Virus record (IMG/VR): IMGVR_UViG_3300037502_003888
Span: 36,643 to 100,642 of that record
DNA length: 64,000 bases
Source: a virus
Direction: 5' to 3' (one strand)
A program made the position numbers and the translations under genes. This document shows, in pieces, positions 2,966 through 39,038 of this stretch (its first letter is position 1; each line of letters starts with the position of its first letter). Under the pieces are notes generated by a model that did not search any database, was not told the origin of the DNA, and saw only the letters and a list, made by a program, of their open reading frames with translations.

Positions 2966-3000
2966 TTTTGTTATTGTACATGAATCTCGCGCGATGTCAA
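2966..3000 (-). promoter_or_regulatory. Host-type (sigma70-like) promoter for the gp55-like/gp47 operon
   Basis: On the minus strand, TTGACA (2995-3000) is followed after 16 bases by TACAAT (2973-2978). Transcription would begin near 2966, just before the AGGAG ribosome-binding site at 2958-2962. This supports the TTG start at 2950 and early or middle expression of the sigma factor. Confidence 0.7.
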
Positions 3001-3032
3001 GCCTCGCCAAAAAACCAGTGTTTTTTGATCTG

Positions 3033-3040
3033 GGTAAATA
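3033..3040 (+). promoter_or_regulatory. Late-promoter-like element (GGTAAATA) before the tail module
   Basis: GGTAAATA, close to the T4 late consensus TATAAATA, lies 18 bases before the first tail gene at 3058. A GGGGAAG-like ribosome-binding site sits in between. It has two mismatches to the consensus, so this is a candidate only. Its position in the divergent gap facing the tail genes supports the call. Confidence 0.45.
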
Positions 3041-3057
3041 CGTGATGGGGAAGATCT

Positions 3058-11557: not shown

Positions 11558-11932
11558 ATGACCACCTTTATCGGTTTCAACACCATCAATCAGTTCAAGA
11601 AATTCACGCTGACTGATTTTGAGCTCATCAAGCGTGATCTCATCAATGCCTTTAACATACGCCAGGGTGAACTGCCCGGCAGGCCCAGTTACGGCACTGT
11701 GATGTGGGACTTCCTGTTTGAAAATCAGCTCAGCCAACTGCAGACTGACATCGAGCGCGAGATACAGCGTGTGGTGGGCGGCGATCCACGAGTGCAGGTC
11801 GATCAGCTGGTGGTTTATCCACAAGAAAACGGCATCCTGGTACAGCTGGAAGTCAGCACGGTCAATGGCGTAAATGCTGAAATACTCAGTGTATTTTTTG
11901 ATCTGCAGACGCGCCAAGCCAGTTACATCTAA
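11558..11932 (+). CDS. 25: Baseplate wedge protein gp25 (gpW/gp25 family)
   Basis: 124 residues, the normal size for gp25. The diagnostic GRPSYGT at residues 41-47 is followed by 'WDFLFENQLSQ', and a C-terminal beta-rich segment completes the gpW/gp25 fold. In contractile tails this protein sits in the wedge and initiates the sheath. It lies between the unknown tail protein and gp6, the same order (25 then 6) seen in many marine T4-like phages. Confidence 0.9.
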   Translation: MTTFIGFNTINQFKKFTLTDFELIKRDLINAFNIRQGELPGRPSYGTVMWDFLFENQLSQLQTDIEREIQRVVGGDPRVQVDQLVVYPQENGILVQLEVSTVNGVNAEILSVFFDLQTRQASYI

Positions 11933-11983: not shown

Positions 11984-14900
11984 ATGGCAGAGACCACTAG
12001 ACAGACCGCGATATTTGGGGTAGAAGACTGGAAACAGATCTACCAGACCTATCGCGAAGCCGATTTCCAGAGCTATGATTTTGAAACTCTGCGCAAAAGT
12101 TTTGTTGATTATCTCCGCCTCTACTATCCCGAGACTTTCAATGACTACATCGAAAGTTCAGAATTCATTGCTCTCTTGGATGTCATAGCATTCATGGGCC
12201 AGAGCCTGGCCTTCAGGACTGATCTCAACACACGAGAAAACTACATCGACACCGCAGAACGTCGGGACAGCGTGGTGCGCTTGGCCAACCTAGTGAGTTA
12301 CACTGCCAAACGCAATACCTCAGCCGAAGGATTCCTCAAGGTATTCAATGTCAGCACCACAGAAAATGTAGTGGATTACAACGGGGTGAACCTCAGCAAT
12401 GTCACCGTGGATTGGAATGATCCCACGAACCCCGACTGGCAAGAGCAGTTCACTGCCATCATCAATGCAGCGATGGTCAACAGCCAGAAAGTGGGTCGCC
12501 CCGGCAATCGCCAGACCATACTGGGTGTGCGCACCGACGAATATGCCATTAACCTGGTACCAGGATTCCTGCCAGTGATACCCTACAGCTCTGTGGTGGA
12601 TGGTATCAACATGCCGTTTGAAGCCATGAGTTCCAGCACCGTGGGTGAGAACTATGTGTATGAAACCGCGCCCCGAGCAGGCAGCGCTTTCAACATGCTT
12701 TACCGTGATGATCAGTTGGGATTTGCCAGTGCTGACACCGGATACTTCTTTTTGTTCAAGCAAGGCACCCTGCAGAATCAAGATTTCAATCTAGCAGAGC
12801 GCATAGCCAATCGCACAGTTGACATCAACATCGAAGGTATCAACAATCAAGACCGTTGGTTGTTCCAACTGGACGACGTGGGCACAGTGAATCGCGAGTG
12901 GCAATTTGTAGAAAACATCTATGCCGCAGCAGCCGAACAGAACCAGCAGTTGCGTCCTATCTACAGCGTGACCAGCCGCAGCAATGATCAGATCACTTTG
13001 GTGTTTGGTGATGGTGTGTTCAGCGAGATCCCTGTGGGTACCTTCCGGGCCTATGTGCGAGCCAGCAATGGTCTGCAGTACATCATCAACCCCGAAGAGA
13101 TGCAGAACGTAGTGCTGCCCATCAGCTACATCAGCCGCAACGGCAATCTCGAGACCATCACGTTTACCTGTGGTATCACTCGCCCGGTCAGCAACAGCCA
13201 GTCCCGCGAAAGTCTCGATGCCATCAAGCAACGTGCTCCAGCCAGATACTACACACAAAATCGCATGGTCAATGGCGAGGACTACAATCTGTTTCCGTTC
13301 ACGGCCTACAACAGCATCATCAAGAGCAAGGCCCTGAATCGTGCCAGTATCGGGACCAGTCGATATCTAGATCTTGTAGACAACACCGGCAAGTACAGCA
13401 GCACCAATATCTTTGGCAGTGATGGTGGACTGTGGCGCAACGATATCACGCCCACTATACTGTTCAGTTGGACCAATCGCAACGAGATATCAGATCTCCT
13501 CAGCAACCAAGTGGTTCCGGGACTGGCCCAGGCCGTGGTGAATCAATTCTACTATGCCAATTTTCCACGCAAGCTGGTCAATCTCTTGGACTTCAGTTGT
13601 TCGGCCACATATTCTGGGGTCACCAGCGGCACAGTGGAAACCACCAGCACAGACTTCGCACGCTATGCACAAGTGGGAGACACAGTGGTATTCACCGGCA
13701 CTGTGGCCGGCGGACTCATAGCAGATCTCACCTACTTCATACGATCCATATCCACGGTCACTACACAGACACCGTCGGGACCCACATACACCACAAATTT
13801 TTCTGTGAGCACTGCAGTGAATGGTGACCCCATAGTTCTCACCAGTACCGTGGCCACTATGCCAGCCACGCTGACCCTCAGCACTGCCAACACCACATGG
13901 CAACAGAGCACCACGCTGGCCAACGAAACCACAGGTTACTTCGAAAACTCCGCAGGTGCGCCTATCAGCGTAGGTAGCACTGTGACCACAGTGTTTGAGT
14001 TCGTGGCTGTGGGTTCGTTGATACGTTTCATACCACCCACGGGTTACTTTTTTGATCGCAACAACAGACTGCAGGTAGGCACGCCCACGAGGCCCGACGA
14101 GCGCCTTGAGATCTGGGCTGCACCGCAGCGTGTGGTGGGCGATGGCAGCAACGATGGGCAAGGCAATCTCGATGATGGGTCGGGTCCAGTTACACTCAAC
14201 AACTTTGTGCCCACTGGAGCCATAGTAGACACCATCATACCTCTGTTCATCACAGATATTCCGCTGTCGGTGCAGTCACTGATGGCCGAACAGATTGAGT
14301 TGTTTCGCAACTTTGGCATAGGCTACGACAACGACGGCAGCATCACTGGCACACCTTACAGCTGGTATATCATCACCAGCACCAATCTAGCCCAAGATGC
14401 TCCCTGGAGCCAGGCCTTTGCTGGCAATACTTCAGGCACCAACAAAGATGCATCATGGATGGTACAGTTCATAGTCCAGAACCAAAACTACACTGTGAGC
14501 TTCCGTGGTCTGGCCTACTACTTCGGATCAGTGCTGCAGACGAGATTTTTCTACTATGATGGCGGACAGATCTACGACAGTCGCACTGGCACAGTGATCC
14601 GCGACTATATCAATGTGTTGGCCGTGAACACCCAGCCCGACAGCACTGAAAATTTGCGCAGCGATATCTTCATGACCATCACTGGACAACCGGTAGAGAG
14701 TGATGGCTATGTGGATGACTTCCAGGTGCTGGTGGGATTCCGCGACAGCGACAACGATGGTGTGCCGGACAATCCTGACTTTTTTGATGAGATCGTGGCG
14801 CCGGATGCCAATCCCACTGACAAGCTGGTGTTCTTCCAGCGCATCGTGGATTTTGACAATCTCCAGAGATATGTGTTGGTCGAACCCGACGTGGTCAACA

Positions 14901-15703
14901 CCGATTATGCCACACTGGACGATGTGGAGTTGGTGAAATCTGAATGGTCACCAGGACAAGTTTTCTATGTGTATGATGAGGGTCTGTTCTATAGACTGCA
15001 GCTCACAGTGACTGGCACCAGAGAATTGGTACCGCAGACTGATTACATAAGCCGCACTGGCCGACAGGCTCTGTATTTCCAATATCGGCACAACAGTCCG
15101 CTCACGAGCCGCATAGATCCTGGCACCACCAACATCATCGATCTCTACGTGGTCACACAAGAATACTACACCAGCTATCAGAATTGGTTGCGAGACACCA
15201 CTGGCACAGTGTTGGAACCAAACCAGCCCACTATCAATGATCTCAGCACTGCCTATCAGGGACTACAGGACTACAAGATGATTTCTGACAACATCGTTGT
15301 AAACTCCGTGACATTCAAACCTTTGTTTGGAGCCAAGGCCGAACCCACACTGAGAGCCACGATCAAAGTCATACGTGCCCAAAACAGCGTGGCCAGTGTC
15401 ACAGAGATCAAGAGTTCAGTGTTGGCAGAAATGAACAGTTATTTCAGCATAGACAAGTGGAACTTCGGTGATACGTTCTACTTCAGTGAACTCGCTGCAT
15501 ATCTGCACAGGACTCTAGGAACCATAATCAGTTCGGTGGTGCTGGTTCCCTTGGATCCAGCCAAGAGCTTTGGCGATCTATACGAGATACGCAGTCAGCC
15601 CAATGAGATATTTGCCAATGCTGCCACAGTGGACAACATTGACGTGATCGAAGCGCTGACCAGCACCAATCTGCGCACAGCACCTGGCAGCGGAGTAATC
15701 TAA
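11984..15703 (+). CDS. 6: Baseplate wedge protein gp6 (baseplate J-like), 1239 residues
   Basis: The N-terminus has the T4-like gp6 pattern 'FVDYLRLYYPETFNDYIESS', 'LLDVIAFMGQSLAFRTDLN' and 'ERRDSVVRLANLVSYT'. This is the wedge backbone that forms the iris-like inner baseplate ring. The central part follows the baseplate-J fold (QTILGVRTDEYAINLVPGF). The protein is about twice the length of T4 gp6 (660 residues). Extra inserted regions lie around residues 520-720 and 780-960, including a calcium-type motif DSDNDGVPDNPD near residue 920. The C-terminal ~130 residues (KPLFGAKAEPTLRATIKVI) return to conserved gp6 sequence. Its TAA overlaps the next ATG by one base. Confidence 0.9.
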   Translation: MAETTRQTAIFGVEDWKQIYQTYREADFQSYDFETLRKSFVDYLRLYYPETFNDYIESSEFIALLDVIAFMGQSLAFRTDLNTRENYIDTAERRDSVVRLANLVSYTAKRNTSAEGFLKVFNVSTTENVVDYNGVNLSNVTVDWNDPTNPDWQEQFTAIINAAMVNSQKVGRPGNRQTILGVRTDEYAINLVPGFLPVIPYSSVVDGINMPFEAMSSSTVGENYVYETAPRAGSAFNMLYRDDQLGFASADTGYFFLFKQGTLQNQDFNLAERIANRTVDINIEGINNQDRWLFQLDDVGTVNREWQFVENIYAAAAEQNQQLRPIYSVTSRSNDQITLVFGDGVFSEIPVGTFRAYVRASNGLQYIINPEEMQNVVLPISYISRNGNLETITFTCGITRPVSNSQSRESLDAIKQRAPARYYTQNRMVNGEDYNLFPFTAYNSIIKSKALNRASIGTSRYLDLVDNTGKYSSTNIFGSDGGLWRNDITPTILFSWTNRNEISDLLSNQVVPGLAQAVVNQFYYANFPRKLVNLLDFSCSATYSGVTSGTVETTSTDFARYAQVGDTVVFTGTVAGGLIADLTYFIRSISTVTTQTPSGPTYTTNFSVSTAVNGDPIVLTSTVATMPATLTLSTANTTWQQSTTLANETTGYFENSAGAPISVGSTVTTVFEFVAVGSLIRFIPPTGYFFDRNNRLQVGTPTRPDERLEIWAAPQRVVGDGSNDGQGNLDDGSGPVTLNNFVPTGAIVDTIIPLFITDIPLSVQSLMAEQIELFRNFGIGYDNDGSITGTPYSWYIITSTNLAQDAPWSQAFAGNTSGTNKDASWMVQFIVQNQNYTVSFRGLAYYFGSVLQTRFFYYDGGQIYDSRTGTVIRDYINVLAVNTQPDSTENLRSDIFMTITGQPVESDGYVDDFQVLVGFRDSDNDGVPDNPDFFDEIVAPDANPTDKLVFFQRIVDFDNLQRYVLVEPDVVNTDYATLDDVELVKSEWSPGQVFYVYDEGLFYRLQLTVTGTRELVPQTDYISRTGRQALYFQYRHNSPLTSRIDPGTTNIIDLYVVTQEYYTSYQNWLRDTTGTVLEPNQPTINDLSTAYQGLQDYKMISDNIVVNSVTFKPLFGAKAEPTLRATIKVIRAQNSVASVTEIKSSVLAEMNSYFSIDKWNFGDTFYFSELAAYLHRTLGTIISSVVLVPLDPAKSFGDLYEIRSQPNEIFANAATVDNIDVIEALTSTNLRTAPGSGVI

Positions 15704-18700
15704 TGGCACGCGTGAGATCAGTAGACTTCCTACCACAGATTTTCCAGACCGACACCAATCGACAGTTCCTGGCGGCCACGCTAGACACGCTGACACAGGA
15801 ACCTCAGTTCAAGAAAACCCAAGGCTACATCGGCCGGCGTGTGGGCCCGGGAGTAGACCCCAACGACGTCTATGTGATCGAACCCGACAAGACGCGCACT
15901 GATTACCAGCTGGAAGCCGGCATCGTTAGCCTGGTGCCTGACACCAATGAGATCAAAGATCTCATGACCTATCCCGGCCTAGCCGACGCGATATCGTATC
16001 AAGGCGGCGATGGATCACGATCAGATCGTCTCTATGAAAGTGATTATTACTGCTGGGACCCGTTTGTTGATTTTGACACTCTAGTGAACTTCAATCAGTA
16101 TTACTGGGTGCCCAACGGTCCTGATGTAGTAGATGTATCGGCCACGCCTATCCCAGCCACTGAACAATTCACTGTGAATCGTGCCAACGGCGTCTATACT
16201 GTGCCCGGGCAGAGTGGACCGAATCCCACGATCACATTGGTACGTGGTGGCAGCTATACCTTCAGCGTGGCACAGAATCGTGTGGAGACCATCAACTTCC
16301 GGGTGCAAAATCAAGGCGTATCGGCGTACCTCATCGATCGCCAGCCCAATCCTGCACTGACTCTGATACGCGGCAATACCTATGTGTTCCAGCTGAATCT
16401 GCGCGATAACTTCCCGTTCTGGATCAAGACCTTGCCCACACTGGGCGAAGCCGATGCCTATGATCAAGGAGTGCTGCGCAACGGTGCTGTGACTGGCAGT
16501 ATCACTTTCACAGTGCCACAGGATGCACCAGATCAACTGTATTATACCAGCCAAAACAACATCAGTTTGCAGGGCACCATCAATGTGGTGAATGGTCAGA
16601 GCGGCACAGGATCGGGATTCTGGATCCAGACAGCCCCGGGAGTGTCGGGCACATTGCCGGCCTATCCCAACATCAGCAGTCGCGATGTGCTGGGAGTACA
16701 GAACAACGGCATAGATCTCGGCCAGGTAGTGTTCAATGTTCCGCGCGTGACCGCACAGCAGTTCTACTACAATCTACCCAACTTTACCGTGGGCGTGGAT
16801 CTCCTGACAGATCTAAAGTTTGACGAGATCAACAATCAACCCTTGTTGGAGTTCATAGCTCGTACCGGCGGCATCGATGGCATCACCAATCTCATTGGTA
16901 GGACCTTGGTGTTTTCGACTCCCATCATCAGTCCCGAAGCCGGAGGGTGGTTCCGTGAAACGCTGTATGATCCCTTGGATCCCACACAGGCCAACAACGA
17001 TCTAGCAGGCAGCTATGACAGTTTGCCCTATGATCTCACCACGGTGATCCCGGCAGAAGATCGTCGCCAGCTCTGGCAGATCAGTACCATAACCAGCAAC
17101 GGCATCGCATACATCCAGCTAGAGAAAATTTCCAACATACCTGATCTGCACAAGTTTCCCATACGATTTGGTACAGTGTACAGCAACACAGTGTGGTACA
17201 AAACGCAGACACAGGATCTCGAGCGTGTGCCTCTGCTGTCGGCTGCCAGTGATACCTTGTACTATCAGGATGGCACTGATCCAGAAATTTATGGTGTGAT
17301 CAAACTGGTGGATGGCAACATCAACCAGGTGCTGTTTATCGACCAGATCGAAGGACAATCACAGTATACCAGCCCCAACGGTGTGGTGTTCACCAACGGT
17401 CTCAAGGTCAAGTTTACCGGCGATGTGGTGCCAGCCAATTATGCCAGCGGCACGGTCACGGTGGTGTGTACCAGCACACAGGCCGACATCAACGCCATCA
17501 CTACCTACAGCACTGATATACTGTATCCCAATCAACAAATAGTGTTCACTAGTCCCACAGTGGGTGGTCTCCAGCCTGGCATCACCTACTATGTAGGCAC
17601 CATAATCAATGAACTCCAGTTCACTGTGACTTTGGTACCCAACGGTGCCGACGTCGTCCTGCAGGATGGCAGTATCGCGCAGATGATCGGCACTGCTATC
17701 AATGATCGCCAATACTATGTGTCAGGTGTGGGCAGCAGCATCCGTCTGTTGCCTGTGACTGATTTCGTGACACCTGAAGAATACGTAGAGACCGAAGATC
17801 CCGATGGCAGCACAGTGACCACACAGCCCAATCTGCCTGATTATATTACCATAGATCGGGCCAGCATAGATCTCAACGCCTGGAGCCGCAGCAATCGCTG
17901 GTTCCACAAAGATGTCTTGGTGGCCACTGCCACCTACAACGACACCGAGATCAGTCTGCCCAATGAATATCGTGGCCGTAGGCCGATCCTGCAGTTCCGT
18001 CCAGGCATACGCTTGTGGAACATGGGCACACGCGGCAAGCAGCCAGTGAACATCATAGATTTCCAAGAGACTGATGCCTTCAGTGACATCGAAGGCAGTT
18101 TGTCTTACAGCACCGATGGCTATGCGCTTGAAAACGGCAGCCGAGTGATATTTGCCGCAGACATAGACCCCGAAGTGCGCAACAAGATCTATCAGGTAGA
18201 ATTCATCACCCCCGACAGCATACCTGATCTCATCGCACAACCCATCATACATCTGCGTTTGGCCGATGATGGTCTAGTGCTGGCCGATGACAGCACTGTG
18301 TGTCTCAATGGCGACACTCTCAAAGGCGTGACATTCTGGTACGACGGTGATCGATGGATACGCAGCCAGCAAAAGACAAGCATACAACAAGCCCCGTTGT
18401 ACAATGTCTATGACCTGCAGGGTCGCAGTTTCGGTGACAGCACTGTGTATCCCAGCACCAACTTTGCCGGCAGCAAACTGTTTAGCTATGCGCTGACATC
18501 ATCGAGCCAAGTGGATCCGGTGCTGCAGTTGCCGTTGCAATATCGCAACATAGCCAACATCGGCGACATCGTGTTTGACAACAATCTCTACAGTGATTCA
18601 TTTATCTATACATTGAATCGCGTGAGCCAGACCGTGCCCATCAGCACCGGTACTGTGCGTGAATACAGCAGCCGCACCCAGTATCGTAGACAGCTGGGCT

Positions 18701-21700
18701 GGCAGACCGCAGCCACTACCAGCAAGGTTTACCAGCAGTTCCGGTTCACCTACAACGGACAGGATCTGGTGCTGGACGTCCGGGCACAGGACGTGGTCAC
18801 GGTACCCAGCATCAAGATCTACGTGGAAAACGTGTTTGTTGATCCCAGTCAGTACAACTACACACGCACCAACAACAGCACCACTATTACTTTTGCCGAC
18901 GGCGTGGCCACGGGCAGCTTGGTAGAAGTACTGGTGTTGAGCGCACAGACCAGCAACGTGGCTTTCCGACAAGTACCGTTGAATCTCGAAAACAATCCTT
19001 TCAACGCCAACAGCGACAGCTTTACCCTGGGCACAGTGCGCCAGCACTATGATAACCTCTGTGAGAATCTCACGAATCTCCAGGGCGAGATCAACGGAGC
19101 CAACAACACCCGTGACCTAGGCAACATCGTGCCATTTGGCTTGACCATCCTGCAGCAGAGTTCGCCCCTGACCCTGGCTGGCTACTTCCTCAGGGATCCG
19201 GGTTATGACTTTTTCCAGGCCCTGATTTACAACAGCCGAGAGTATACCAAGTACAAGAATCTAATTCTGGACAATGTCACGCAGCAAGAACTGCAGTTCC
19301 AGACTGCGGCAGAGATCCTAGACACAGCCATAGAGAATCTCACCCAGGGACGCGTCAGCAATCAGCCGTTCTACTGGAGTGACATGTTGCCGTCGGGCGC
19401 AGTGTACACCGAGACAGTGTACACAGTGACCAATATCACCACCAATACTTTTGACACCACCCAGGTCTATGATTACGACACTGCCAACTATCTGGGTCTC
19501 AATGTCTACTTCCAGGATACCATACTGATTCGTGGACTTGACTACACAGTCAGTACCGATGCTCCGCAGATCACTGTGTTGTTTCCCCTGGCCGTAGGCG
19601 ATCAGATCGTGCTGCGTGAATACGCCACTACCTATGGCAGCTTCTGTCCCAACACCCCTACCAAGCTGGGACTGTATCCAGCCTGGCGCCCTGACATCAT
19701 CACAGTGCAGGGCAGTTTTGGACCCACACAGGTCATACGCGGACACGACGGCAGCCAGACGCCGCTGTTCAATGACCTACGTGACGATGTGTTGCTGGAA
19801 TTTGAGCGCAGGATCTACAACAATCTCAAGCTAGACAACAATCCTGTGCCCTTGACCATAACAGATGTGTTGCCAGGACAGTTCCGTGAAACTGGTTACA
19901 GTTTCTCTGAGATCAACACTTTGCTGAATCAGGATTTCCTGAGCTATCTGGCCTGGAACAAGCTGGATTATCGCACGCAGGATTATCGTGCTGACAACGA
20001 ATTTACCTGGAATTACAGCACTGCCAAGAGCAAACTAGATAACCGCAATCTCCTGGGTGCCTGGCGTGGTATCAATCGTTACTACTACGACACTGAACAA
20101 CCCGAAAGCACGCCCTGGGAGATGCTGGGATTCACCGTGGAACCGGACTGGTGGCAAGACAACTACGGTGCGGCTCCCTACACACAGAACAACTTGGTGT
20201 TGTGGGATGATCTAGCAGCCGGCGTGGTGCGCGATCCTGCAGGCGTGTATATCCGTCCGCAATACGCAAGGCCCGGATTGCAACAAGTTATCCCCACAGG
20301 CGATCAAGGTCAGTTGTTGAGCCCATTTGATTCAGTGGTGGGCACCTATGACAGCACACAATTCCGGCGCAGCTGGAGCCTGGGCGACGGCAGTCCTGTG
20401 GAAAGCAGCTGGTATAACAGCAGCAGCTATCCTTTTGCAGTGATGCGTGTGTTGGCCCTAACGAGACCCGCTAAATTTTTCGCGCTGTTTGCAGACCGCG
20501 ATCTCTACAAGTATGACAATGAATTCGGTCAGTACCTGTTGAACCAGCGCTATCGCTTGGATGCCAATGGAGTGCAGGTCTATGGCGATGGTGTCAGCAA
20601 GGCCAGCTACATCAACTGGATCGTGGATTACAATCGCCAGACCGGCATCAACAGCACTGACATCTTGGAAACCGATCTAGCCAACCTAGACGTGCGCCTG
20701 TGCTACCGCATGGCCAGCTTCAGTGACAAAAAACTCATCCAGGTCTACACCGACCGGGCCACACCTGCTGGGACCAACAACACCCTGTTGCTGCCGGATC
20801 AGAGCTACAATCTCCTGTTGTACAAAAACCAACCATTTTCCCGTGCCAGCTACAGCAGCGTGATCATACAAAATGTGCCGGGTGGTTACGCTGTGTTTGG
20901 TTATAGCACCACACAGCCTTTCTTCAATGTGCAGACATCTGTCACCAATGGACAACTAGACACCATTGGTGTGGGTTCGGTCCGGGTCCGAGTGCCCACG
21001 CTGTACCTCAACAAAGTGACCCAGGTACCCTATGGTTTCATATTCCGGGATCGCACCAGCGTGGTGGATTTCTTGTTGAGCTATGGAGAATTCCTCACAC
21101 GCCAGGGCCTAACATTTGACAGCATCGAAAATGGTTATGTGCTGGACTGGCGCCAGATGGCCGTGGAGTTCTTGTACTGGAGCCAGCAGGGTTGGGCAGA
21201 AAACACAGTGATCTCTATCAATCCCTTGGCCCTGCGCATGAGTGTCACACGGCCTGGAGCTGTGGTAGACAGCATCAATGTGCAGACCATAGAAAGCCTC
21301 TTGTTGGATCAGAATCGGCGCCAGTTCCCCACGCGCAATCTCGACATCGTGCGGCTGGAAAATACCTTTACTGTACGCCCCTTGACCGATCAAGTATTGA
21401 GTTACATTGATCTCAAATACACCAGCTTTGAACATGTCATCGTGTTGAACAATGCCAGTGAATTTGGAGATCTCATCTATGATCCCATCACCGGTGCTCG
21501 CCAAAGCCGATTGAATCTAGTGGCTGTGACCACCTCAGGCTGGAACGGCAGCATAGATACCCCAGGTTTCATACTCAACACTCCCACAGTGCAAGACTGG
21601 GATCGCACCAGGATCTATGCCAAGGGCGAGATTGTTCGCTACAAAGGTGCTTTCTGGAGCGCAGCCACCATAGTGCAACCCAGCGAGAGATTCAACTACA

Positions 21701-24700
21701 ACGACTGGCTGCAGAGCGACTACGCGGAGATTGAGCGCGGTTTGTTGCCCAACATCGCCAACAAGGCCGATCAGTTGATCAACAGCTACAACATCAATTC
21801 GGCCAACCTTGAAAGCGACAACGATCTCTTGAGTTATGGACTCATAGGATTCAGACCACGGCAATACATGAGCGCACTGAACCTCGATGACGTGAGCCAG
21901 GTCAATATCTATCGACAGTTCCTGGGCACCAAGGGAACTATCCGCAGCGCCGAGCTCATGAGCAATGCACGTCTGCGCAAAGAAAGTGCGCAGTATGACA
22001 TCTATGAAAACTGGGCAGTGCAACAAGGTGTGTACGGCGCCAATGCCAATCGCAGCTTCTTTGAGATACGTCTGAATCGCGCCTTGCTGGACAGCAATCC
22101 CAGCACCATACAGGTCACGGAACCGCAGCAGACCAGCACAGCAGACCAGTCAGTGCTGGTCAGCGATCTCTGGAGGGAAAGCTACTATATCACCAGCAGT
22201 GACATACTGCCAGTGACCACAGAGACCGTGACTGACACAGCATTGCCATCAGCGGGATATGTGAATCTCAACGACATCGACATCACTGTGTTTGATCTCG
22301 ATGATCCCAGCACCTTGGCCGCGGATCTCGACCGCATCGAAGATGGCACCAGCATCTGGGTGGCCAAGGTCAATGATTATGACTGGAACGTGTATGCCAG
22401 CCAGGCAGTGCCGGGTGTGATACAACATGTGTGCGACAATCTCGATGGCACCAGTATCGTGATATTCAGCAAGCAGCATGGCCTAACAGTCAATGATACC
22501 ATCATCATCAAACAATTTGACAGCGAGATTGATGGTGTGTATCGTGTGATCAGTGTGCCGACACTGACCAAAATCACCATTGAATTCAGTTTCACTGGAG
22601 ATCGCACAGTGGTCAACGGCACGGGTTTCGCTTTTGAGCTGGTCACACAACGAGTCTCTCAGTTCAGTGATGCTGTGGATCTCGCCTATGCCAATCTGCC
22701 AGTGCCGGGTGCCCGAGTCTGGATCGACAACGATGGTACAGGCCACTGGGCCGTGGTAGAAAAACGCCAGGTGTTCCTTGATCCTCTGGAACTGGCACCG
22801 CGTGACCTAGATGCGACCCAGGCCTATGGAACCAGTGTGGCACAGGCCACAAATGGTCTAGCATCATTTGTGGGCAGTTCAAGACTGGGATTCAACACCG
22901 GTGCTACCATAGGTGGTGTGTATGTGTATGTACGCGGCGCCAGTGAGATCTATCAACCCACCAGCCCCATACAAAATGCCGATGCTATCATGCAGCTCAT
23001 GGTGACAGGCGTGCGTGAACTGGGTTATAGTTTGGCCATGGGCGACAAAGACTGGGGCGCCAGCGGCGCGCCTGGCAGTCTCGGGCCCAGCAGCGAAGCC
23101 AACGTGGGCTATGTGGGTGCTTTTTATCGCGATCTAGAAACCTATCGCCCTGGCACCAATCCCTATGTGATGTGGCAATTGCTGACCAAACCGGGAAATC
23201 TCACAACGGCTGGCAGTCGCTTTGGCAACAGCATCGACATCAGCCGCGACGAACGCTGGATGTATGTGGGCAGTCCCGGAGAAAACAAAGTCTATGCCTA
23301 TGCTCGTGTGCCCGTGCCGGTGCAGCGCATCCAAGCCCAGGGCGACAGCAGTGAAAGCTATGACGTAGCCAGCGTGATCCAAGTTGAGTCAGGAGACCAA
23401 CTGACGGTCACCCTTGATGGTCAAGAATTGGTGTTTGGAACCCAATTCACTGTCACTACCTACAGCGTGCCTGGTGTTGGAACTCGCGTGGAATCTGTGG
23501 AATTTGCAGTGGCGCCGGGATCAGATCAACAAGTGGTGATCCAGCGTCGCACACAGCATCAGATCGATGGCGGCACCTACCGCACAGTACCAGCATCAGG
23601 CGGATCAGGCACTGGAGCTGAATTCATAGTGTACCGAGCCCGGCGAGATGTCACAGTGGTGGCTGAATCCGGTGGCATTGGTTACCAAGTGGGCGACAGC
23701 CTCACCATAGATGCTGCTGATTTTGATGGTGGAACTTCACCAGCCAACGACATCACCATGACAGTGACATCAGTCACAGCCGCGGGACAGGTCGTGGCTG
23801 TAGGCAGCGTGACTTACACAGCGCCGGCAGTGGTCAACACTTTTGACATCGGCCAATACCTGTTCACTGTGAGTTCAATCTACAGTTTCTCGGTGTTGGT
23901 GGATGATGTGCTGCAGCGTCCCAACATTGACTACACCTTTGACAGCAACACACAAGAAGTAACGTTCGTCAATAATCCAGCCGATGGATCAGTGATCATC
24001 GCTAGAGCCCAGAGCTATTGGCAGTTAGTAGACACACTCACAGTGGCTGGTCTAGACAGTGCAGCAGAATTCGGTGCCAGCGTGACCTGTACCACTGATG
24101 GTCGTCAGGTCATGGTGGGCACTCCCCAGCGCGAAGTCAACGGTGTGTTGCGGGCCGGTACTGTGTATGTGTTTGATCGTGACGTGCAGAGATTTGTGTA
24201 CGGCCAAGATCCCAGCAGCATCAGCTTCACGGTACTGGGCACAGTCACAGCACCAGTGTCAGTGCTGGTCAACAACACATTCTTGCAGGATCAAGCCATG
24301 GGAGTCATTGACGGGGTCAATACTTTTGTGGTCAGCGGCAACACCGTGACGTTGAACACTGACCTAGTGGTGGGCGATTTCCTAGATATCGAGACCAATC
24401 AGTTTGCTCTGTTGCAAGTGATCAATCAAGACACACCAGAAACCTTTGCCAATTTTGGACAGGCTGTGGATATTTGCAGCAATAACTGTAGCCTATATGT
24501 AGGCGCGCCCCAGAGCAGCCTACAGATCTACAAAGGCGGTGTGGTAGAACGCCTGGTCAATCAGGCCAGGATCTATGGCACCATCACCAGCACTGTGTCG
24601 GGTCCCACTCTCACAGCAGGCAATACCCTGAGAGTCAACAACCAGGACATCACAGTGCCCGCGGCCACGGCACAGGTCAGCAGTCTGCAAGGTCTGGCCA

Positions 24701-27700
24701 ATGCCATCAACAACGAAGTGCCCAATGTCACTGCAACAGTGAGTTCAGGGCGACTCACGGTGTCAGTGAGCAATCAATCCGCAGGTGTGCCTGGCAATCT
24801 AGTACAGGTATTGCCAGGCAGCGTAGGCACAGCATTTGATGATCTCGGATTTGATGTGTATGCATCAACACAGACCATGCTCAGCCCTTATGCCAGGGAA
24901 TTTGCTGGGTTTGGTTCTGCTATCAGTGTCAGCGACAATGCTACCCAGATAGTGGTAGGCGCACCCAACGGCAACATGTACATAGTACAGATTTTTGACG
25001 AAGATCCAGCACTGTTTGATGCTGGTGTCACTGATTTTTATTCAGAGATCGCCAACAGCGGTGCGGTGTATGTGTATGACTATGCTGAATCTGCCAACGG
25101 CAGCATCACCAACCCTGCCAAATTCATAGTCACACAACAGATCGAGATTCCCGATGTTGCCACACAGGATCAACTGGGCAGCGCAGTGAGTTATGTGCAG
25201 GGTCTGTTGTACATGGCAGCACCGGGCAGCGACAAGGACAGCGAAGGAGTAGACGACAGCCAAGCCAACTATGGCCGGGTCTATGTGGTAGACAATCCAG
25301 GTGCACAGAGCAGCTGGCGTGTGCTGCAGGCACAGCGTCCCGTGGTGGATATCAGGCTGTTGAACAGTGTGTTCTTGTACAATCTAGTGAGCTCCAGCAC
25401 CACAGAATTCTTGGATTTCTTTGATCCGTTGCAGGGCAAAATACTGGGAGCTGCCCGACAGAACATCGATTATATCGGTGCCGTGGATCCCGCAGGCTAC
25501 AACTCAGGTGGTGTGAATCTGCGCGGGACCACATGGACTGGCGATCATCAAGGCGAGATATGGTGGGATACCAGCACGGTGCGGTTCATTGATCCCAATC
25601 AGGACAGCCTCACCTATGCTGCACGGCGTTGGGGTCAGGTGTTTCCGGGCAGCAGCATAGATGTCTATGAGTGGATCACCAGCACTGTGCCTCCGGATCA
25701 GTATCCGGGTCCCGGGGTAGTTCGAGACATCGGCAGCTATTCGGTGCGAGCTGTGCTGCAGCGCGACGGTACCATAGTCACAGAATATTTCTACTGGGTT
25801 CGCAGCAGCACTGCAGTGGCCACACGCCGCGGCAAGACTCTCAGCACTGAGGCCATCTCTCGATACATCGAGAATCCCCGGGGCAGTGGCATCGCTTACC
25901 TCGCTGCCATCAATGCCAGCACCGTGGCCATCTACAACTGCGAACAGCTGATTGAAGCCCAGGACACAGTGCTGCACATTGAGTTTGACCAGCAGTTCAC
26001 CACAGACAATGTGCATGTGGAGTATCAGCTGGTTCCTGAAAACCGCGCTGATGGCTGGATCACCCCAGTGATCTATCGCAAATTGCAGGACAGCCTCTGC
26101 GGCGTGGATGAAGTCGGCAACAACGTGCCTGATATCTTCCTGAGCCCACCTGAGCGCTATGGCATACAATTCCGTCCGAGACAGAGCATGTTTGTGGACC
26201 GATACTCTGCTCTGGAAAATTTCGTGCAGCGAGTGAATTCTGTGCTGGTGCAGTTTCCCATATCAGAGACTCGTAGATTCGTGCTGCTGGACAGCGCAGA
26301 TCCTGAGCCCAGCGCGCAGAGTGGACTCTGGAACAAGCGTGTGGACAACATAGAACAACTGTCATTCCAGGACATCTATGCAGTGCCATTGGGCTACAGT
26401 TATCTAGTCAACAGCGACAGCACCCAGCAAGGTCTCTGGACCATCTACACAGTGATCTCGGGTCAGCTGTTGGGTCAGCGCCAACTGAGATTGGCACGAG
26501 TACAGAACTATCGTACCAGTGATTACTGGGATTACATCAACTGGGTGCGACCCGGCTACAATGACAGCGTGCGTCCCAAGATCGAAGTACAGAACTATGC
26601 TGATCTAGATACCTTGGTGGTTCCTGTGGGCACCAGCGTCAAGGTCTTGGCCAACAGCCAAGGCAAATTCGAGATCTGGTTGCTGGAAGACACCGGCTGG
26701 GAACGAGTGGTGCTGCAAGATGGTACCATAGCCCTGGATGATGTGCTGTATGATTACAGCCTGGGTCGATTTGGTTTTGATGCTGAAGTATTTGACGCAC
26801 AGTATTTTGATCAGGCACCCACCACCGAAACACGCAAGATCATACAGGCAGTGAATCAAGAATTGTTCATTGACGATCTCTTGATAGAACGCAATCGCTT
26901 GTTGGTGCTGATGTTTGAATACGTGCTGAGCGAAAATGTGGCTCCTGAGTGGTTGGTCAAGACCAGCCTGGTGGATGTGGATCACAGCGTGCGGGAACTG
27001 CTGCCATTCCAGAATTATCGCCGTGACAATCAGGAATTCGTGGAAGATTACGTCCAAGAAGTCAAGCCCTATCACGTGCAAGTGCGGGAATTCAATCTCA
27101 AATACTTTGGTATTGACACCTATCTCGGTGACCTCACAGACTTTGATTTACCTGCGTACTGGAACACTGCCCTCACAGTACCGCGTTTCACATCGCCGAT
27201 TCTCACACCTTATGCCATGAGCCTGCCCGAGCCCACCAATATATTGAGTGACGCTGCCAGCACCAATGGCATCTGGCAACAATGGCCCTATAGCCAATGG
27301 TACAGCAATTTCTTGCTGACTCTCACAGACATACGTGTGGTAGACAGTGGCACGGGTTACACCGGCATTCCTGAGATCATCATACAAGGTGACGCTGTGA
27401 TCCCGGCCACGGCCGTGGCGCGCATCAACATTGCCGGAGAAGTCATCGCTATCGATGTGTTGACCGCAGGTTCGGGGTATCGCAGCACACCTGTGATCGT
27501 GATCCAAGGTGGAAACGGCACCGGAGCCCGCGCCTACCCCACCATGCTCAATGCCACCACGCGTGAATTCCGTGTGAACATGAAGTTTGACCGGTATCAA
27601 TATCGCAGTGATATCGAAATGTGGAGTCCCGATGGCACCTACGAAAATGGTATCCTGGTCAGATATCAAGATCAAGTATGGCGTGCTGACAATCAGGACG

Positions 27701-30435
27701 GTAGCTCGGCCAACGTTGGTCCCACATTTGATCTCCAAAACTGGCAAGTGGTACCAGCTGGCCAGCTCAGTGGGCTGGATCGCACCAAGGGTTACTATGT
27801 GCCCGGGGTCAACATGCCGGGTCTCGACCTACCTTTGTTGATCGACGGGCTCGATTATCCTGGTGTACAGGTCAAAGGCAATGATTTCGTGGGCGGTTGG
27901 CCATTGGACGCGGAATACAGCAGCAGTTTCTTGGATATCTATCTGGGAACCCGGCCCACAGACATCAACGTAGATGGTGGCGAGTTCCTAGGTCCTTACG
28001 AAGGCCATGCACCGGAAGAACTTGTAAACGGTGCCATATATGACACCTTGGATCTGCGGGTGTACACACGTCCCGGTTCAGACTGGAGCGGCAACGGACA
28101 TGGTTTTGATCTGCGCACAGTGAATGTTCAGTGGACCACAGGATCCATCAGCTGGGCTGGACTATTGGATGCACCGGTAGAACTTTTGGTAAGCGATGCC
28201 ACACAGCGCCTGCAATTGGTGTTTGGCACGGACTATGACATCGACTGGGACGATCAAACCATAACCTTTACCAGCACCAGTCCTGTGCAGAGCGGCGACA
28301 TCATCAGCGTGGTTGTTTATGGCCTGGGCGGTGGTAGCCAATTGTTCACAGGCAACTACGTGGGTGCCAACATCGTGAATCAACAAGTGGTGGTGCCGGT
28401 GAACAGCAGCGAGATCAATCAAGTCGTGGTGTTCGTGGACGGGTCACAGGTCACCGCACCCACATTTGTACCCTACACAGCCCACGTGGCATGGACCATC
28501 CAACAGGGATATCAGCGCGGTACTGTGGTGTTGGAAAGCAACGTTTACTATCGGGCGATACAGACGGTGCCAGCCGGTGTGTTGTTGAGCAACCTCCAAT
28601 ACTGGCTGAGTTTCGTGCCCACGCTGGAGACTTTGGTGACATTGGCCTCGCAACCAGCGGCAACAGCCGGTGTCACTGTGGTGGTCATGGGTGATTTCTC
28701 AGTGCAGGCTGGGGCTTTCATACCAGGTCGCACCTATACCATAGCCACGCTGGGCACCACAGATTTCACTGCTGTGGGAGCTGCCAGCAACACAGTGGGA
28801 GTGAGCTTCGTGGCCACAGCACCGGGATCGGGATCCGGCACTGCCTACACCAACTACAGCTGGAGCACCCCACAGACACAGATAGTGACCGTGGATGCCG
28901 GCATCGCAGCTGATGGTATCATCACCTTGACCAACAGCATGACTGGTACTAATCCAGCCAATCTGGTGGTCACACGCAACGGGCTGCGTTTGACTGGTGC
29001 CAGCTGCCAGCGTTGGATCTCCAACGGCACGGAAACCAGTTTTGGTTTGCCGCAGCGAGTGGGCCCCAGTTTTGAACAGATCACTATCAATCCCAACACC
29101 GATATACAGGTATGGGTAGACAACATACTGCAGGTACAGAATTTTGGACCCATCGTTGGTGACTATTATGTCACTGCCTGGGGTGGCAGCAACGTTCCCG
29201 GCAGGCAAGTGGTGTTCAACAATCCACCGCTGGCAGGCAGCGTGGTATTGATCTCGCTCAACATCATTGACACACAGCTCACAGCCTATGAGGTCTACAA
29301 CAATCTCATAGAATTCTACGAGCCACTCAACATCGGTGATGTGATAGCAATCACCAGCTGGAATGACACCAGCCAGCAGGACATCACCACACAGGTTTTT
29401 GTGGGACCTGTGATATCCGGTGTCACTGCAGCCGAGCCCTATGACAGCACACCATACGATCAAGCCACGGTAGACAGCACACCGGGCAGTTTCAGCTATA
29501 CTCTGGGGCAGCCCTATGCGGTCAACGATTTCTTCTTGCAGGGTGATGTCACTGACGCTGGTAGATTGTGGGTCACCTTGGATGGTTATAGATTGTATGA
29601 GGGACAGGACTTCACAGTGGTCAACGGTGAATTGGTCTTGGCAGCTGGAGCCATAGGACAAGCACAGGTCTTGGTGGTCACATCTTTCACAGACAGCATC
29701 GTGCCCGAAGCCTGTGCTTTCCGTGTGTTCCAGGACATGCGCGGTGTGCAAGCTACCTATCGAATCACACCCCAGAGCACCACCACTGTGGCACAACCGG
29801 TTTATGAAAACAGCGATCGCATTTATGTCACAGATGTGTCGGTGCTGACTGAGCCCAACCTCCAGTCCAATGTCTTGGGTGTGATTACCATAGACGGCGA
29901 GCGCATCACTTATCGCAACCGTGATCTCAGCAACAACAGCATTTCGGGCCTGCGCCGCGGCACAGCAGGCACTGGTGCAGCTGATCATGCTGTTGGCGCA
30001 GATGTGTATGTCATGGGGCGCGACAATCTCTTGGCTGAACAATATCAAGACTACGTGGTGGGCGACACCACGCTGGGTGATGGCAGCACCACAGAGTTCT
30101 ATGCTCCCAGCATACCAATACCCCAGATAGGCGACAGCAGCCTTTTCGAGATTGAAAGCCTAGAAGTTTACGTAGGTGGTGTGCGACAACTTAGATTGGG
30201 GCAGCCCGGCAATAGCCAATATCGCTGGATATTCACCAATTGGGAACCCATCGGCATACAATTTGTGGTGAACGATGATCCCGTGGATCCACAATTAGCC
30301 CCGCCCCAAGGCGTAGAAGTCACCATAGCCCAGCGCAGAGGTACTTGGTGGTATGATGTCAGTACTGCAGCAGCTCGTGAACTCAGCCTGCAAGAAACAG
30401 ACACATTGCAGGCCAAGTTCTTGACCAATAGATAG
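15703..30435 (+). CDS. Giant 4910-residue tail/baseplate structural protein
   Basis: A single uninterrupted frame of 14.7 kb, 23% of the window. The N-terminus ('VDFLPQIFQTDTNRQFLA', 'YYCWDPFVDFDTLVNFNQYYW') belongs to a family of very large virion proteins in marine T4-like phages, positioned where T4 has gp7. The middle (~2507-3180) holds FG-GAP-type repeats (FGNSIDIS, FGASVTCT, FGQAVDIC, FGSAISVS, LGSAVSYV, with nearby VGSPG, VGTPQ, VGAPQ, VGAPN, AAPGS). Later modules include paired GxGY...P repeats (~3884-3950), a TDFTAVGA adhesion-type module (~4350) and an ITIDGERITYRN/SGLRRGTAG module (~4740-4765). No enzymatic motif was seen. Probable roles are wedge assembly, tail decoration or receptor contact. 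Confidence 0.85.
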   Translation: MARVRSVDFLPQIFQTDTNRQFLAATLDTLTQEPQFKKTQGYIGRRVGPGVDPNDVYVIEPDKTRTDYQLEAGIVSLVPDTNEIKDLMTYPGLADAISYQGGDGSRSDRLYESDYYCWDPFVDFDTLVNFNQYYWVPNGPDVVDVSATPIPATEQFTVNRANGVYTVPGQSGPNPTITLVRGGSYTFSVAQNRVETINFRVQNQGVSAYLIDRQPNPALTLIRGNTYVFQLNLRDNFPFWIKTLPTLGEADAYDQGVLRNGAVTGSITFTVPQDAPDQLYYTSQNNISLQGTINVVNGQSGTGSGFWIQTAPGVSGTLPAYPNISSRDVLGVQNNGIDLGQVVFNVPRVTAQQFYYNLPNFTVGVDLLTDLKFDEINNQPLLEFIARTGGIDGITNLIGRTLVFSTPIISPEAGGWFRETLYDPLDPTQANNDLAGSYDSLPYDLTTVIPAEDRRQLWQISTITSNGIAYIQLEKISNIPDLHKFPIRFGTVYSNTVWYKTQTQDLERVPLLSAASDTLYYQDGTDPEIYGVIKLVDGNINQVLFIDQIEGQSQYTSPNGVVFTNGLKVKFTGDVVPANYASGTVTVVCTSTQADINAITTYSTDILYPNQQIVFTSPTVGGLQPGITYYVGTIINELQFTVTLVPNGADVVLQDGSIAQMIGTAINDRQYYVSGVGSSIRLLPVTDFVTPEEYVETEDPDGSTVTTQPNLPDYITIDRASIDLNAWSRSNRWFHKDVLVATATYNDTEISLPNEYRGRRPILQFRPGIRLWNMGTRGKQPVNIIDFQETDAFSDIEGSLSYSTDGYALENGSRVIFAADIDPEVRNKIYQVEFITPDSIPDLIAQPIIHLRLADDGLVLADDSTVCLNGDTLKGVTFWYDGDRWIRSQQKTSIQQAPLYNVYDLQGRSFGDSTVYPSTNFAGSKLFSYALTSSSQVDPVLQLPLQYRNIANIGDIVFDNNLYSDSFIYTLNRVSQTVPISTGTVREYSSRTQYRRQLGWQTAATTSKVYQQFRFTYNGQDLVLDVRAQDVVTVPSIKIYVENVFVDPSQYNYTRTNNSTTITFADGVATGSLVEVLVLSAQTSNVAFRQVPLNLENNPFNANSDSFTLGTVRQHYDNLCENLTNLQGEINGANNTRDLGNIVPFGLTILQQSSPLTLAGYFLRDPGYDFFQALIYNSREYTKYKNLILDNVTQQELQFQTAAEILDTAIENLTQGRVSNQPFYWSDMLPSGAVYTETVYTVTNITTNTFDTTQVYDYDTANYLGLNVYFQDTILIRGLDYTVSTDAPQITVLFPLAVGDQIVLREYATTYGSFCPNTPTKLGLYPAWRPDIITVQGSFGPTQVIRGHDGSQTPLFNDLRDDVLLEFERRIYNNLKLDNNPVPLTITDVLPGQFRETGYSFSEINTLLNQDFLSYLAWNKLDYRTQDYRADNEFTWNYSTAKSKLDNRNLLGAWRGINRYYYDTEQPESTPWEMLGFTVEPDWWQDNYGAAPYTQNNLVLWDDLAAGVVRDPAGVYIRPQYARPGLQQVIPTGDQGQLLSPFDSVVGTYDSTQFRRSWSLGDGSPVESSWYNSSSYPFAVMRVLALTRPAKFFALFADRDLYKYDNEFGQYLLNQRYRLDANGVQVYGDGVSKASYINWIVDYNRQTGINSTDILETDLANLDVRLCYRMASFSDKKLIQVYTDRATPAGTNNTLLLPDQSYNLLLYKNQPFSRASYSSVIIQNVPGGYAVFGYSTTQPFFNVQTSVTNGQLDTIGVGSVRVRVPTLYLNKVTQVPYGFIFRDRTSVVDFLLSYGEFLTRQGLTFDSIENGYVLDWRQMAVEFLYWSQQGWAENTVISINPLALRMSVTRPGAVVDSINVQTIESLLLDQNRRQFPTRNLDIVRLENTFTVRPLTDQVLSYIDLKYTSFEHVIVLNNASEFGDLIYDPITGARQSRLNLVAVTTSGWNGSIDTPGFILNTPTVQDWDRTRIYAKGEIVRYKGAFWSAATIVQPSERFNYNDWLQSDYAEIERGLLPNIANKADQLINSYNINSANLESDNDLLSYGLIGFRPRQYMSALNLDDVSQVNIYRQFLGTKGTIRSAELMSNARLRKESAQYDIYENWAVQQGVYGANANRSFFEIRLNRALLDSNPSTIQVTEPQQTSTADQSVLVSDLWRESYYITSSDILPVTTETVTDTALPSAGYVNLNDIDITVFDLDDPSTLAADLDRIEDGTSIWVAKVNDYDWNVYASQAVPGVIQHVCDNLDGTSIVIFSKQHGLTVNDTIIIKQFDSEIDGVYRVISVPTLTKITIEFSFTGDRTVVNGTGFAFELVTQRVSQFSDAVDLAYANLPVPGARVWIDNDGTGHWAVVEKRQVFLDPLELAPRDLDATQAYGTSVAQATNGLASFVGSSRLGFNTGATIGGVYVYVRGASEIYQPTSPIQNADAIMQLMVTGVRELGYSLAMGDKDWGASGAPGSLGPSSEANVGYVGAFYRDLETYRPGTNPYVMWQLLTKPGNLTTAGSRFGNSIDISRDERWMYVGSPGENKVYAYARVPVPVQRIQAQGDSSESYDVASVIQVESGDQLTVTLDGQELVFGTQFTVTTYSVPGVGTRVESVEFAVAPGSDQQVVIQRRTQHQIDGGTYRTVPASGGSGTGAEFIVYRARRDVTVVAESGGIGYQVGDSLTIDAADFDGGTSPANDITMTVTSVTAAGQVVAVGSVTYTAPAVVNTFDIGQYLFTVSSIYSFSVLVDDVLQRPNIDYTFDSNTQEVTFVNNPADGSVIIARAQSYWQLVDTLTVAGLDSAAEFGASVTCTTDGRQVMVGTPQREVNGVLRAGTVYVFDRDVQRFVYGQDPSSISFTVLGTVTAPVSVLVNNTFLQDQAMGVIDGVNTFVVSGNTVTLNTDLVVGDFLDIETNQFALLQVINQDTPETFANFGQAVDICSNNCSLYVGAPQSSLQIYKGGVVERLVNQARIYGTITSTVSGPTLTAGNTLRVNNQDITVPAATAQVSSLQGLANAINNEVPNVTATVSSGRLTVSVSNQSAGVPGNLVQVLPGSVGTAFDDLGFDVYASTQTMLSPYAREFAGFGSAISVSDNATQIVVGAPNGNMYIVQIFDEDPALFDAGVTDFYSEIANSGAVYVYDYAESANGSITNPAKFIVTQQIEIPDVATQDQLGSAVSYVQGLLYMAAPGSDKDSEGVDDSQANYGRVYVVDNPGAQSSWRVLQAQRPVVDIRLLNSVFLYNLVSSSTTEFLDFFDPLQGKILGAARQNIDYIGAVDPAGYNSGGVNLRGTTWTGDHQGEIWWDTSTVRFIDPNQDSLTYAARRWGQVFPGSSIDVYEWITSTVPPDQYPGPGVVRDIGSYSVRAVLQRDGTIVTEYFYWVRSSTAVATRRGKTLSTEAISRYIENPRGSGIAYLAAINASTVAIYNCEQLIEAQDTVLHIEFDQQFTTDNVHVEYQLVPENRADGWITPVIYRKLQDSLCGVDEVGNNVPDIFLSPPERYGIQFRPRQSMFVDRYSALENFVQRVNSVLVQFPISETRRFVLLDSADPEPSAQSGLWNKRVDNIEQLSFQDIYAVPLGYSYLVNSDSTQQGLWTIYTVISGQLLGQRQLRLARVQNYRTSDYWDYINWVRPGYNDSVRPKIEVQNYADLDTLVVPVGTSVKVLANSQGKFEIWLLEDTGWERVVLQDGTIALDDVLYDYSLGRFGFDAEVFDAQYFDQAPTTETRKIIQAVNQELFIDDLLIERNRLLVLMFEYVLSENVAPEWLVKTSLVDVDHSVRELLPFQNYRRDNQEFVEDYVQEVKPYHVQVREFNLKYFGIDTYLGDLTDFDLPAYWNTALTVPRFTSPILTPYAMSLPEPTNILSDAASTNGIWQQWPYSQWYSNFLLTLTDIRVVDSGTGYTGIPEIIIQGDAVIPATAVARINIAGEVIAIDVLTAGSGYRSTPVIVIQGGNGTGARAYPTMLNATTREFRVNMKFDRYQYRSDIEMWSPDGTYENGILVRYQDQVWRADNQDGSSANVGPTFDLQNWQVVPAGQLSGLDRTKGYYVPGVNMPGLDLPLLIDGLDYPGVQVKGNDFVGGWPLDAEYSSSFLDIYLGTRPTDINVDGGEFLGPYEGHAPEELVNGAIYDTLDLRVYTRPGSDWSGNGHGFDLRTVNVQWTTGSISWAGLLDAPVELLVSDATQRLQLVFGTDYDIDWDDQTITFTSTSPVQSGDIISVVVYGLGGGSQLFTGNYVGANIVNQQVVVPVNSSEINQVVVFVDGSQVTAPTFVPYTAHVAWTIQQGYQRGTVVLESNVYYRAIQTVPAGVLLSNLQYWLSFVPTLETLVTLASQPAATAGVTVVVMGDFSVQAGAFIPGRTYTIATLGTTDFTAVGAASNTVGVSFVATAPGSGSGTAYTNYSWSTPQTQIVTVDAGIAADGIITLTNSMTGTNPANLVVTRNGLRLTGASCQRWISNGTETSFGLPQRVGPSFEQITINPNTDIQVWVDNILQVQNFGPIVGDYYVTAWGGSNVPGRQVVFNNPPLAGSVVLISLNIIDTQLTAYEVYNNLIEFYEPLNIGDVIAITSWNDTSQQDITTQVFVGPVISGVTAAEPYDSTPYDQATVDSTPGSFSYTLGQPYAVNDFFLQGDVTDAGRLWVTLDGYRLYEGQDFTVVNGELVLAAGAIGQAQVLVVTSFTDSIVPEACAFRVFQDMRGVQATYRITPQSTTTVAQPVYENSDRIYVTDVSVLTEPNLQSNVLGVITIDGERITYRNRDLSNNSISGLRRGTAGTGAADHAVGADVYVMGRDNLLAEQYQDYVVGDTTLGDGSTTEFYAPSIPIPQIGDSSLFEIESLEVYVGGVRQLRLGQPGNSQYRWIFTNWEPIGIQFVVNDDPVDPQLAPPQGVEVTIAQRRGTWWYDVSTAAARELSLQETDTLQAKFLTNR
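23221..25230 (+). other. FG-GAP-type beta-propeller region in the giant tail protein
   Basis: Five repeats begin near residues 2507, 2790, 2918, 3070 and 3158. Each has an F/L-G-x-(S/A)-(I/V) opening, and about 12-15 residues later a (V/A)(G/A)(S/T/A)P block, usually followed by a Y-V-(Y/F/V) strand. This is the integrin-alpha-like propeller pattern. The interval between the first and second copies is long and contains an inserted beta-rich domain. The propeller implies binding to a protein or glycan partner. Confidence 0.65.
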
Positions 30436-30450: not shown

Positions 30451-30598
30451 GATCATGCAATCTCCTGCCAATAACACACAGCCCCGACCTGCTGACCCCG
30501 CCAAGCGGCCCAACGAACAAGGCAAAATCCTTGTGCAAGATTATTTCGTGATCAAGGATCGCGCCAACAATCAAGTGCTAGTAAAGGGACGAGGATGA
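30449..30598 (+). CDS. Small 49-residue structural-type protein
   Basis: A short gene between the giant protein and the 200-residue protein. It starts at ATG 30449 with AGGAG ten bases upstream, or alternatively at ATG 30455. The first half is proline-rich and polar. The second half, GKILVQDYFVIKDRANNQVL followed by VKGRG, resembles the opening of the next gene (GFVKIYDPLSGEVFVDKKNA), as if both carry the same short beta-hairpin module. It overlaps the next gene by ATGA. Small proteins of this type sit at the same place in other marine T4-like phages. The function is unknown, probably virion-associated. Confidence 0.65.
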   Translation: MIMQSPANNTQPRPADPAKRPNEQGKILVQDYFVIKDRANNQVLVKGRG

Positions 30599-31197
30599 TT
30601 ACCATACCCTGCATGATACAAGGTTTCGTCAAGATTTACGATCCGCTCAGCGGAGAAGTATTCGTTGACAAGAAAAACGCTATACATTATGAAAACATGA
30701 GCATCGCGCTGGCCCAGAGCCTCGCTGATCGCAATCTCGGATACATCTACGAGATGGTTTTTGGCAACGGTGGCAGCAGCGTAGATCCCACTGGTGTGAT
30801 CACTTATCTACCGCCCAATACCACAGGTCAAAACGCCGAACTCTATAACCAGACCTATGCCAAGGTAGTGGATGACAACAGCGCAGCAGATCTCGACCCT
30901 TTGAACAACAAACTCACGGTGTTGCACACCAGCAACGAAGTCTACACGGATGTGCTGGTGACCTGCCTCTTGGACTACGGTGAACCACCCGAACAGCAGG
31001 CCTTTGACAACAGCACACAATACAACGGTGAATTTGTGTTTGATGAATTGGGGCTCAAAGCCTGGAATGGCGCTGTAGATGATCTCAGGCTCATCACTCA
31101 TGTGATCTTTCACCCTGTGCAAAAGAGTTTGAACCGGCAGATACAGATAGATTATACCATCCGGATCCAGACTCTGAGCAATATCAATGCAGTATAA
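30595..31197 (+). CDS. Virion structural protein, conserved in marine T4-like phages
   Basis: 200 residues: an N-terminal 'GFVKIYDPLSGEVFVDKKNA' hairpin module, then a conserved core 'YIYEMVFGNGGSSVDPTGVI', TYLPPNTTG and 'LYNQTYAKVV', and a beta-rich C-terminus. I recall this family from the baseplate/tail-fibre region of cyanophage-type genomes, but I cannot name a T4 counterpart. It starts by ATGA overlap with the 49-residue gene. A strong TATAAATA late promoter begins within its last codons, so the following fibre gene can be transcribed separately. Confidence 0.65.
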   Translation: MITIPCMIQGFVKIYDPLSGEVFVDKKNAIHYENMSIALAQSLADRNLGYIYEMVFGNGGSSVDPTGVITYLPPNTTGQNAELYNQTYAKVVDDNSAADLDPLNNKLTVLHTSNEVYTDVLVTCLLDYGEPPEQQAFDNSTQYNGEFVFDELGLKAWNGAVDDLRLITHVIFHPVQKSLNRQIQIDYTIRIQTLSNINAV

Positions 31198-39030: not shown

Positions 39031-39038
39031 ATATCACC

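Follow-up and report, generated by a model that had tools for sequence, protein, structure and literature searches.

Genomic context of the giant frame

The DNA analysed here, referred to below as the window, is a stretch of 64,000 nucleotides at the right-hand end of an IMG/VR contig of 100,642 bases. A series of genes on the plus strand encodes a gp53-like wedge subunit orthologous to PA5oct gp348 (4596..4895), a gp5-like hub protein orthologous to PA5oct gp350 (8412..9914), a gp25-like wedge subunit (11558..11932) and a gp6-like wedge subunit of 1,239 aa (11984..15703; phrog_10646, E 4.3e-274), the last of which is 42% identical to PA5oct gp354 over 495 aa. These are followed on the same strand by a gene (15703..30435) that frame, profile and codon analysis identified as encoding a giant baseplate-region protein of 4,910 aa from the phrog_10938 family, and then by genes for an orthologue of PA5oct gp357 and SCTP-2 139 (30595..31197) and for a relative of PA5oct gp358/gp359 (31226..33028). 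The PA5oct gp358 record carries a note describing that protein as T4 gp10-like.

It is apparent that the gene order in the window, gp53-gp5-gp25-gp6-giant-gp357-gp358/359, is that of PA5oct. The gp6-giant order is kept in Atu_ph07, CBB and RaK2, and the arrangement is similar in SCTP-2 and Vibrio 2.275. Judged from their sequences, the genes preceding the giant gene are the baseplate set of a T4-related jumbo myovirus.

Some other features of this region were also recorded. The first 80 residues of the 31226-33028 protein match PA5oct gp358 and gp359 alike, which suggests an N-terminal baseplate anchor common to different fibre-like proteins. Between the gp53 and gp5 genes lies a gene (4899-8408) for a protein of 1,169 aa, weakly similar to PA5oct gp349 and phrog_11190, which occupies the place expected for a hub protein. 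Between gp5 and gp25 an Ala/Gly-rich protein of 544 aa is encoded (9916-11550), for which neither a PHROG match nor a counterpart in the PA5oct comparison was found.

Coding status and size

The giant frame begins with an ATG at 15703, overlapping the gp6 stop codon (TAATG), and runs for 4,910 codons, with no internal stops, to a single terminal stop ending at 30435. The other five reading frames contain 74 to 270 stops each over the same span. When the gene was compared with those of four relatives (47-69% amino-acid identity), third codon positions were enriched for differences in each 490-codon block; in block 1, for example, differences from relative L009 at codon positions 1, 2 and 3 numbered 152, 111 and 302, respectively. 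Since this position-3 bias is present in every block, the entire 4,910-codon length is considered to be coding and under purifying selection. The uninterrupted 14.7-kb frame described in the initial annotation is, therefore, genuine. It had also been called exceptional for a phage, a description that the data do not sustain: the nearest relatives include 41 complete copies of 4,199-5,337 aa (open-ended copies reach 5,711 aa), and the protein annotated as gp7 in Prochlorococcus phage P-SSM2 has 5,195 aa, so that a size of 4,910 codons is ordinary for this slot.

Family membership

In a profile search, the window protein matched phrog_10938 ('virion structural protein') in four stretches, with an E value of 1.8e-298, and its scaffold (see below) was aligned by BLAST with six cultured phage members. 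Homologues adjoining gp6 are PA5oct gp355 (3,857 aa), Atu_ph07 gp180 (4,449 aa) and the shorter CBB_236 (3,340 aa) and RaK2 ORF070 (3,326 aa); those of SCTP-2 (140; 3,807 aa) and Vibrio 2.275 (3,771 aa) lie beside a large protein in the corresponding place. On the strength of these matches the window protein belongs with giant proteins of the baseplate region that are already known, as a family, from large phages with contractile tails. Relatives are encoded in at least 592 IMG/VR stretches, and the giant protein is a building block common to a widespread group of large phages.

The cultured giants (PA5oct gp355, Atu_ph07 gp180, CBB_236, RaK2 ORF070 and SCTP-2 140) share with the window protein the scaffold blocks, the order of those blocks and the place next to gp6. 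The window protein is longer, and it contains a seven-bladed propeller and a cupredoxin-like domain that are missing at those sites in the cultured proteins. Giant frames of more than 6,100 codons from stop to stop were observed in three relatives, L130, L134 and L146 (6,194, 6,228 and 6,104, respectively), in which long stretches precede the scaffold.

Domain organization

The anatomy of the protein was derived from an alignment with 56 environmental relatives. In that alignment the chain is a scaffold of conserved length (residues 1-150, 701-2240 and 3201-3820) that bears variable modules. The N-terminal segment (residues 1-150; 15703..16152) has a length SD of 1 residue. In the main scaffold (residues 701-2240; 17803..22422) the SD is 49 residues for 701-1300, where the median is unchanged, and 7 for 1301-2240; for 3201-3820, which takes in the second scaffold segment (residues 3209-3820; 25327..27162), it is 21. 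The corresponding values for the variable parts are 54 for the cupredoxin-like region, 83 for the propeller, 116 for residues 3821-4170 and 234 for the C-terminus, the last being due in part to truncated contigs. The propeller and the C-terminus are also less conserved (identity 0.39-0.41) than the scaffold (0.53-0.62), and it is the scaffold that can be aligned with the cultured phages. This division between fixed and exchangeable parts shows where host binding probably sits.

Domain parsing by structure prediction, which the initial annotation had proposed, yielded a confident propeller model and an N-terminal model that contains a cupredoxin fold but is of low confidence for residues 1-120. 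The cupredoxin-like domain (residues 192-299; 16276..16599) has a predicted model that matches nitrite reductase 2dv6_A with Z 11.4 and 1.8 Å over 90 residues. The domain lacks copper ligands: a sequence scan did not find the Cys-His-Met ligand motif of type 1 copper sites. It was the sole match found with the N-terminal model, and T4-type wedge proteins were absent among the matches listed. Neither the core alignment nor the N-terminal one, used as a profile against solved structures, found a match, and no solved structure of the giant protein itself was found. Neither Pfam nor the structural comparisons recognised the baseplate-family N-terminus of the initial annotation; the N-terminus is shared only within the protein's own family.

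Among the smaller modules, a CBM5/12-like motif at residues 1966-1990 (21598..21672) scored 19.7 bits, below the Pfam gathering score of 26.2, and a second such motif lies at about residues 3974-4000 (27622..27702). Weak CBM5/12-like motifs are also present, at a different place, in the PA5oct and SCTP-2 proteins. A Gly-Tyr β module (residues 3873-3951; 27319..27555), matching phrog_1922 and phrog_460, recurs in other tail and head proteins of phages. Within the variable C-terminal region (residues 4171-4910; 28213..30435), residues 4669-4757 are similar to the C-terminus of the PA5oct protein. Pfam matches of the whole protein to PNK3P and Flagellin_IN fell below the cut-off and were rejected. 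The adhesion-like modules postulated from the sequence are thus represented by an FG-GAP propeller, a cupredoxin fold and weak CBM5/12-like motifs.

Structure of the propeller

The region between the two scaffold halves (residues about 2356-3208; 22768..25326) is predicted to form a seven-bladed, integrin-α-like FG-GAP β-propeller with modules between its blades. The model, built on residues 2230-3215 aligned with 26 relatives, has a pLDDT of 86.7 and a pTM of 0.85. Its best structural match is integrin αM (Z 34.4, 2.7 Å over 364 residues, 18% identity), and the top matches are mostly integrin α chains (Z 31-34). Pfam FG-GAP_2 matched 27 of 27 sequences, with 26.8 bits for PF14312 in the window protein against a cut-off of 23, and five canonical blade motifs, together with two weaker ones that were read by eye, are consistent with seven blades. 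The inserts between blades matched PF03906 and DUF2460 in some relatives and are Flagellin_IN-like in the window protein.

Seven blades, FG-GAP motifs and a high Z score are therefore shared with the integrin α propeller. The window propeller differs in its low sequence identity, in the inserted modules that interrupt its blades and in having no known β-subunit partner; moreover, the DxDxDG calcium loops of the integrin type were not found in the window protein or in the relatives scanned. Propellers of the WD40 family match almost equally well (Z 31-33), so that adhesion cannot be deduced from the fold by itself.

Distribution of the propeller

FG-GAP blades were identified in 136 of 165 family members, including several relatives with short inserts in which the blade profile still detected blades. 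A clade of 27 members lacks the propeller; it includes PA5oct, RaK2, CBB, Atu_ph07, SCTP-2 and Vibrio 2.275, and every cultured relative examined falls within it. Two further members, L070, with a linker of 153 residues at the site, and L078, which is uncertain, lie inside the propeller clade. Three label changes account for presence and absence among the 165 members on a tree made by a quick method with midpoint rooting, on which the changes may be gains or losses. The propeller is the mark of a large, mainly environmental clade and represents a probable attachment module unlike that of every cultured relative examined.

Searched by tblastn against cultured phages, the propeller sequence matched nothing beyond a stretch of 68 residues in marine cyanophages. 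Atu_ph07, from the same family of phages as the window, does encode an FG-GAP propeller fold: gp320 (L253:2519-3700), annotated as 'hemagglutinin' and situated beside genes annotated as tail sheath. This is a stand-alone protein of 393 aa, approximately 100 kb from the baseplate genes and separate from the propeller-less giant chain of that phage. Predicted structures from uncultured phages and from giant viruses contain FG-GAP-type matches too, so that viral propellers as such are not new; among the papers searched, none on an FG-GAP propeller built into a phage baseplate protein was found.

Presence of orthologues in virions

The record for PA5oct gp355 is marked ESI-MS/MS. In mass spectrometry of CBB virions, CBB_236 was detected through 21 unique peptides, which cover 7.72% of its sequence (PMC5259590). 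For phAPEC6, 17 unique peptides and 7.6% coverage were reported for gp245 (381.88 kDa), listed beside the baseplate wedge protein gp244 (PMC7247149); from its size and order, we infer that gp245 is the orthologue of the window giant. On these data, orthologues of the giant protein in PA5oct, CBB and phAPEC6 are virion proteins by mass spectrometry. It is unlikely that the chain is a precursor cut during assembly into separate virion proteins: its great length, its composition of independent modules and the peptide coverage of only 7-8% for the orthologues (PMC7247149, PMC5259590) are compatible with cleavage, but the consulted parts of the literature report the orthologues as single virion proteins and mention no cleavage of them, and no protease site was identified in the window protein.

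Comparison with gp7 proteins

In T4 the gene for gp7, a protein that binds gp10, gp8 and gp6 in the wedge, comes after that for gp6, and the giant gene of the window lies in the same slot, directly after gp25-gp6, in agreement with the initial annotation. T4 gp7 is present in the wedge as six monomers per tail (PMC3004832). The slot and a presumed wedge role are shared by the two proteins, but T4 gp7 has 1,032 aa as against 4,910, and sequence or profile similarity was not detectable: BLAST of T4 gp7 against the window protein gave no match, and hhalign comparison of seven segments with an alignment of seven gp7 sequences yielded nothing either, the probabilities being 0.1-0.7%. P-SSM2 gp7, like the window protein, is a giant encoded directly after gp25-gp6; it belongs to a different family, PHROG 2885, and neither its N-terminus nor its full length showed significant similarity to the window protein. 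The term positional analogue of gp7 is used here because of these results, and a gp7 role for the window protein rests on position.

It is quite possible, though less likely than not, that the window protein is a true homologue of T4 gp7, extremely diverged and enlarged by insertions. The identical slot is in keeping with this, as are gp53, gp25, gp6 and gp5, which are still recognisable homologues. Against it are the hhalign values, no higher than 0.7% for any segment, while the gp6 control was aligned over 307 columns with an E value of 0.0012.

Proposed role of the giant protein

The data are probably best explained by a giant protein that serves as wedge scaffold in a T4-related jumbo myovirus, occupies the gp7 slot and carries a host- or fibre-binding propeller. 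The protein would be made straight after gp6, by way of the overlapping start and stop codons, and we infer that it is located in the wedge, presumably in six copies per virion. Residues 1-150, 701-2240 and 3201-3820 would bind gp6, gp25 and gp53, together with the downstream pin proteins, and the scaffold would stand in structurally for gp7 and perhaps for some peripheral wedge proteins as well. Its exchangeable modules would be the cupredoxin-like domain, the CBM5/12-like motifs, the variable C-terminus and the integrin-α-type FG-GAP propeller, which separates the two scaffold halves. Being less conserved than the scaffold and able to be absent, the propeller is the likeliest host- or fibre-binding element. 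It most likely juts out at the rim of the baseplate, where it would bind either a ligand on the host surface or a fibre, and such contact could thereby be relayed directly to the wedge.

β-Propellers are common platforms for protein-protein interaction. The propeller and the other modules could then be purely structural, stiffening or spacing a large baseplate or clamping wedges and fibres with no host contact. The missing calcium loops and copper ligands favour such a role, as does the retention of the propeller, which is not often swapped, across most of its clade. We regard this as rather unlikely. The propeller is lower in identity and more variable in length than the scaffold, and the site tolerates its absence, both in the 27-member clade and in L070, which would not easily be allowed for a load-bearing part.

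Integrins grip their ligands with a propeller of this kind, and its presence in the giant chain could enable the baseplate to take hold of the host directly. The further proposal, that in this uncultured-rich jumbo lineage a baseplate with an integrin-α-type propeller inside its wedge protein binds the host and triggers without a separate receptor-binding fibre, is doubtful. The propeller-bearing giant allows one to test whether a wedge protein can be a receptor-binding protein in cis.

Other genes in the window

Downstream of the baseplate genes, five successive genes (37633-44115) match radical SAM families (phrog_14086/phrog_1802) weakly to moderately. They are followed by genes for a Nol-like carbamoyltransferase (45293-46765; E 1.8e-91) and, beyond it and on the opposite strand, an aminotransferase (51216-52325). 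An ORF of 1,143 aa (47828-51259) has no PHROG matches. The radical SAM, carbamoyltransferase and aminotransferase genes are possibly involved in modification of DNA or of surface glycans. Radical SAM genes are also situated near the giant gene of Atu_ph07.
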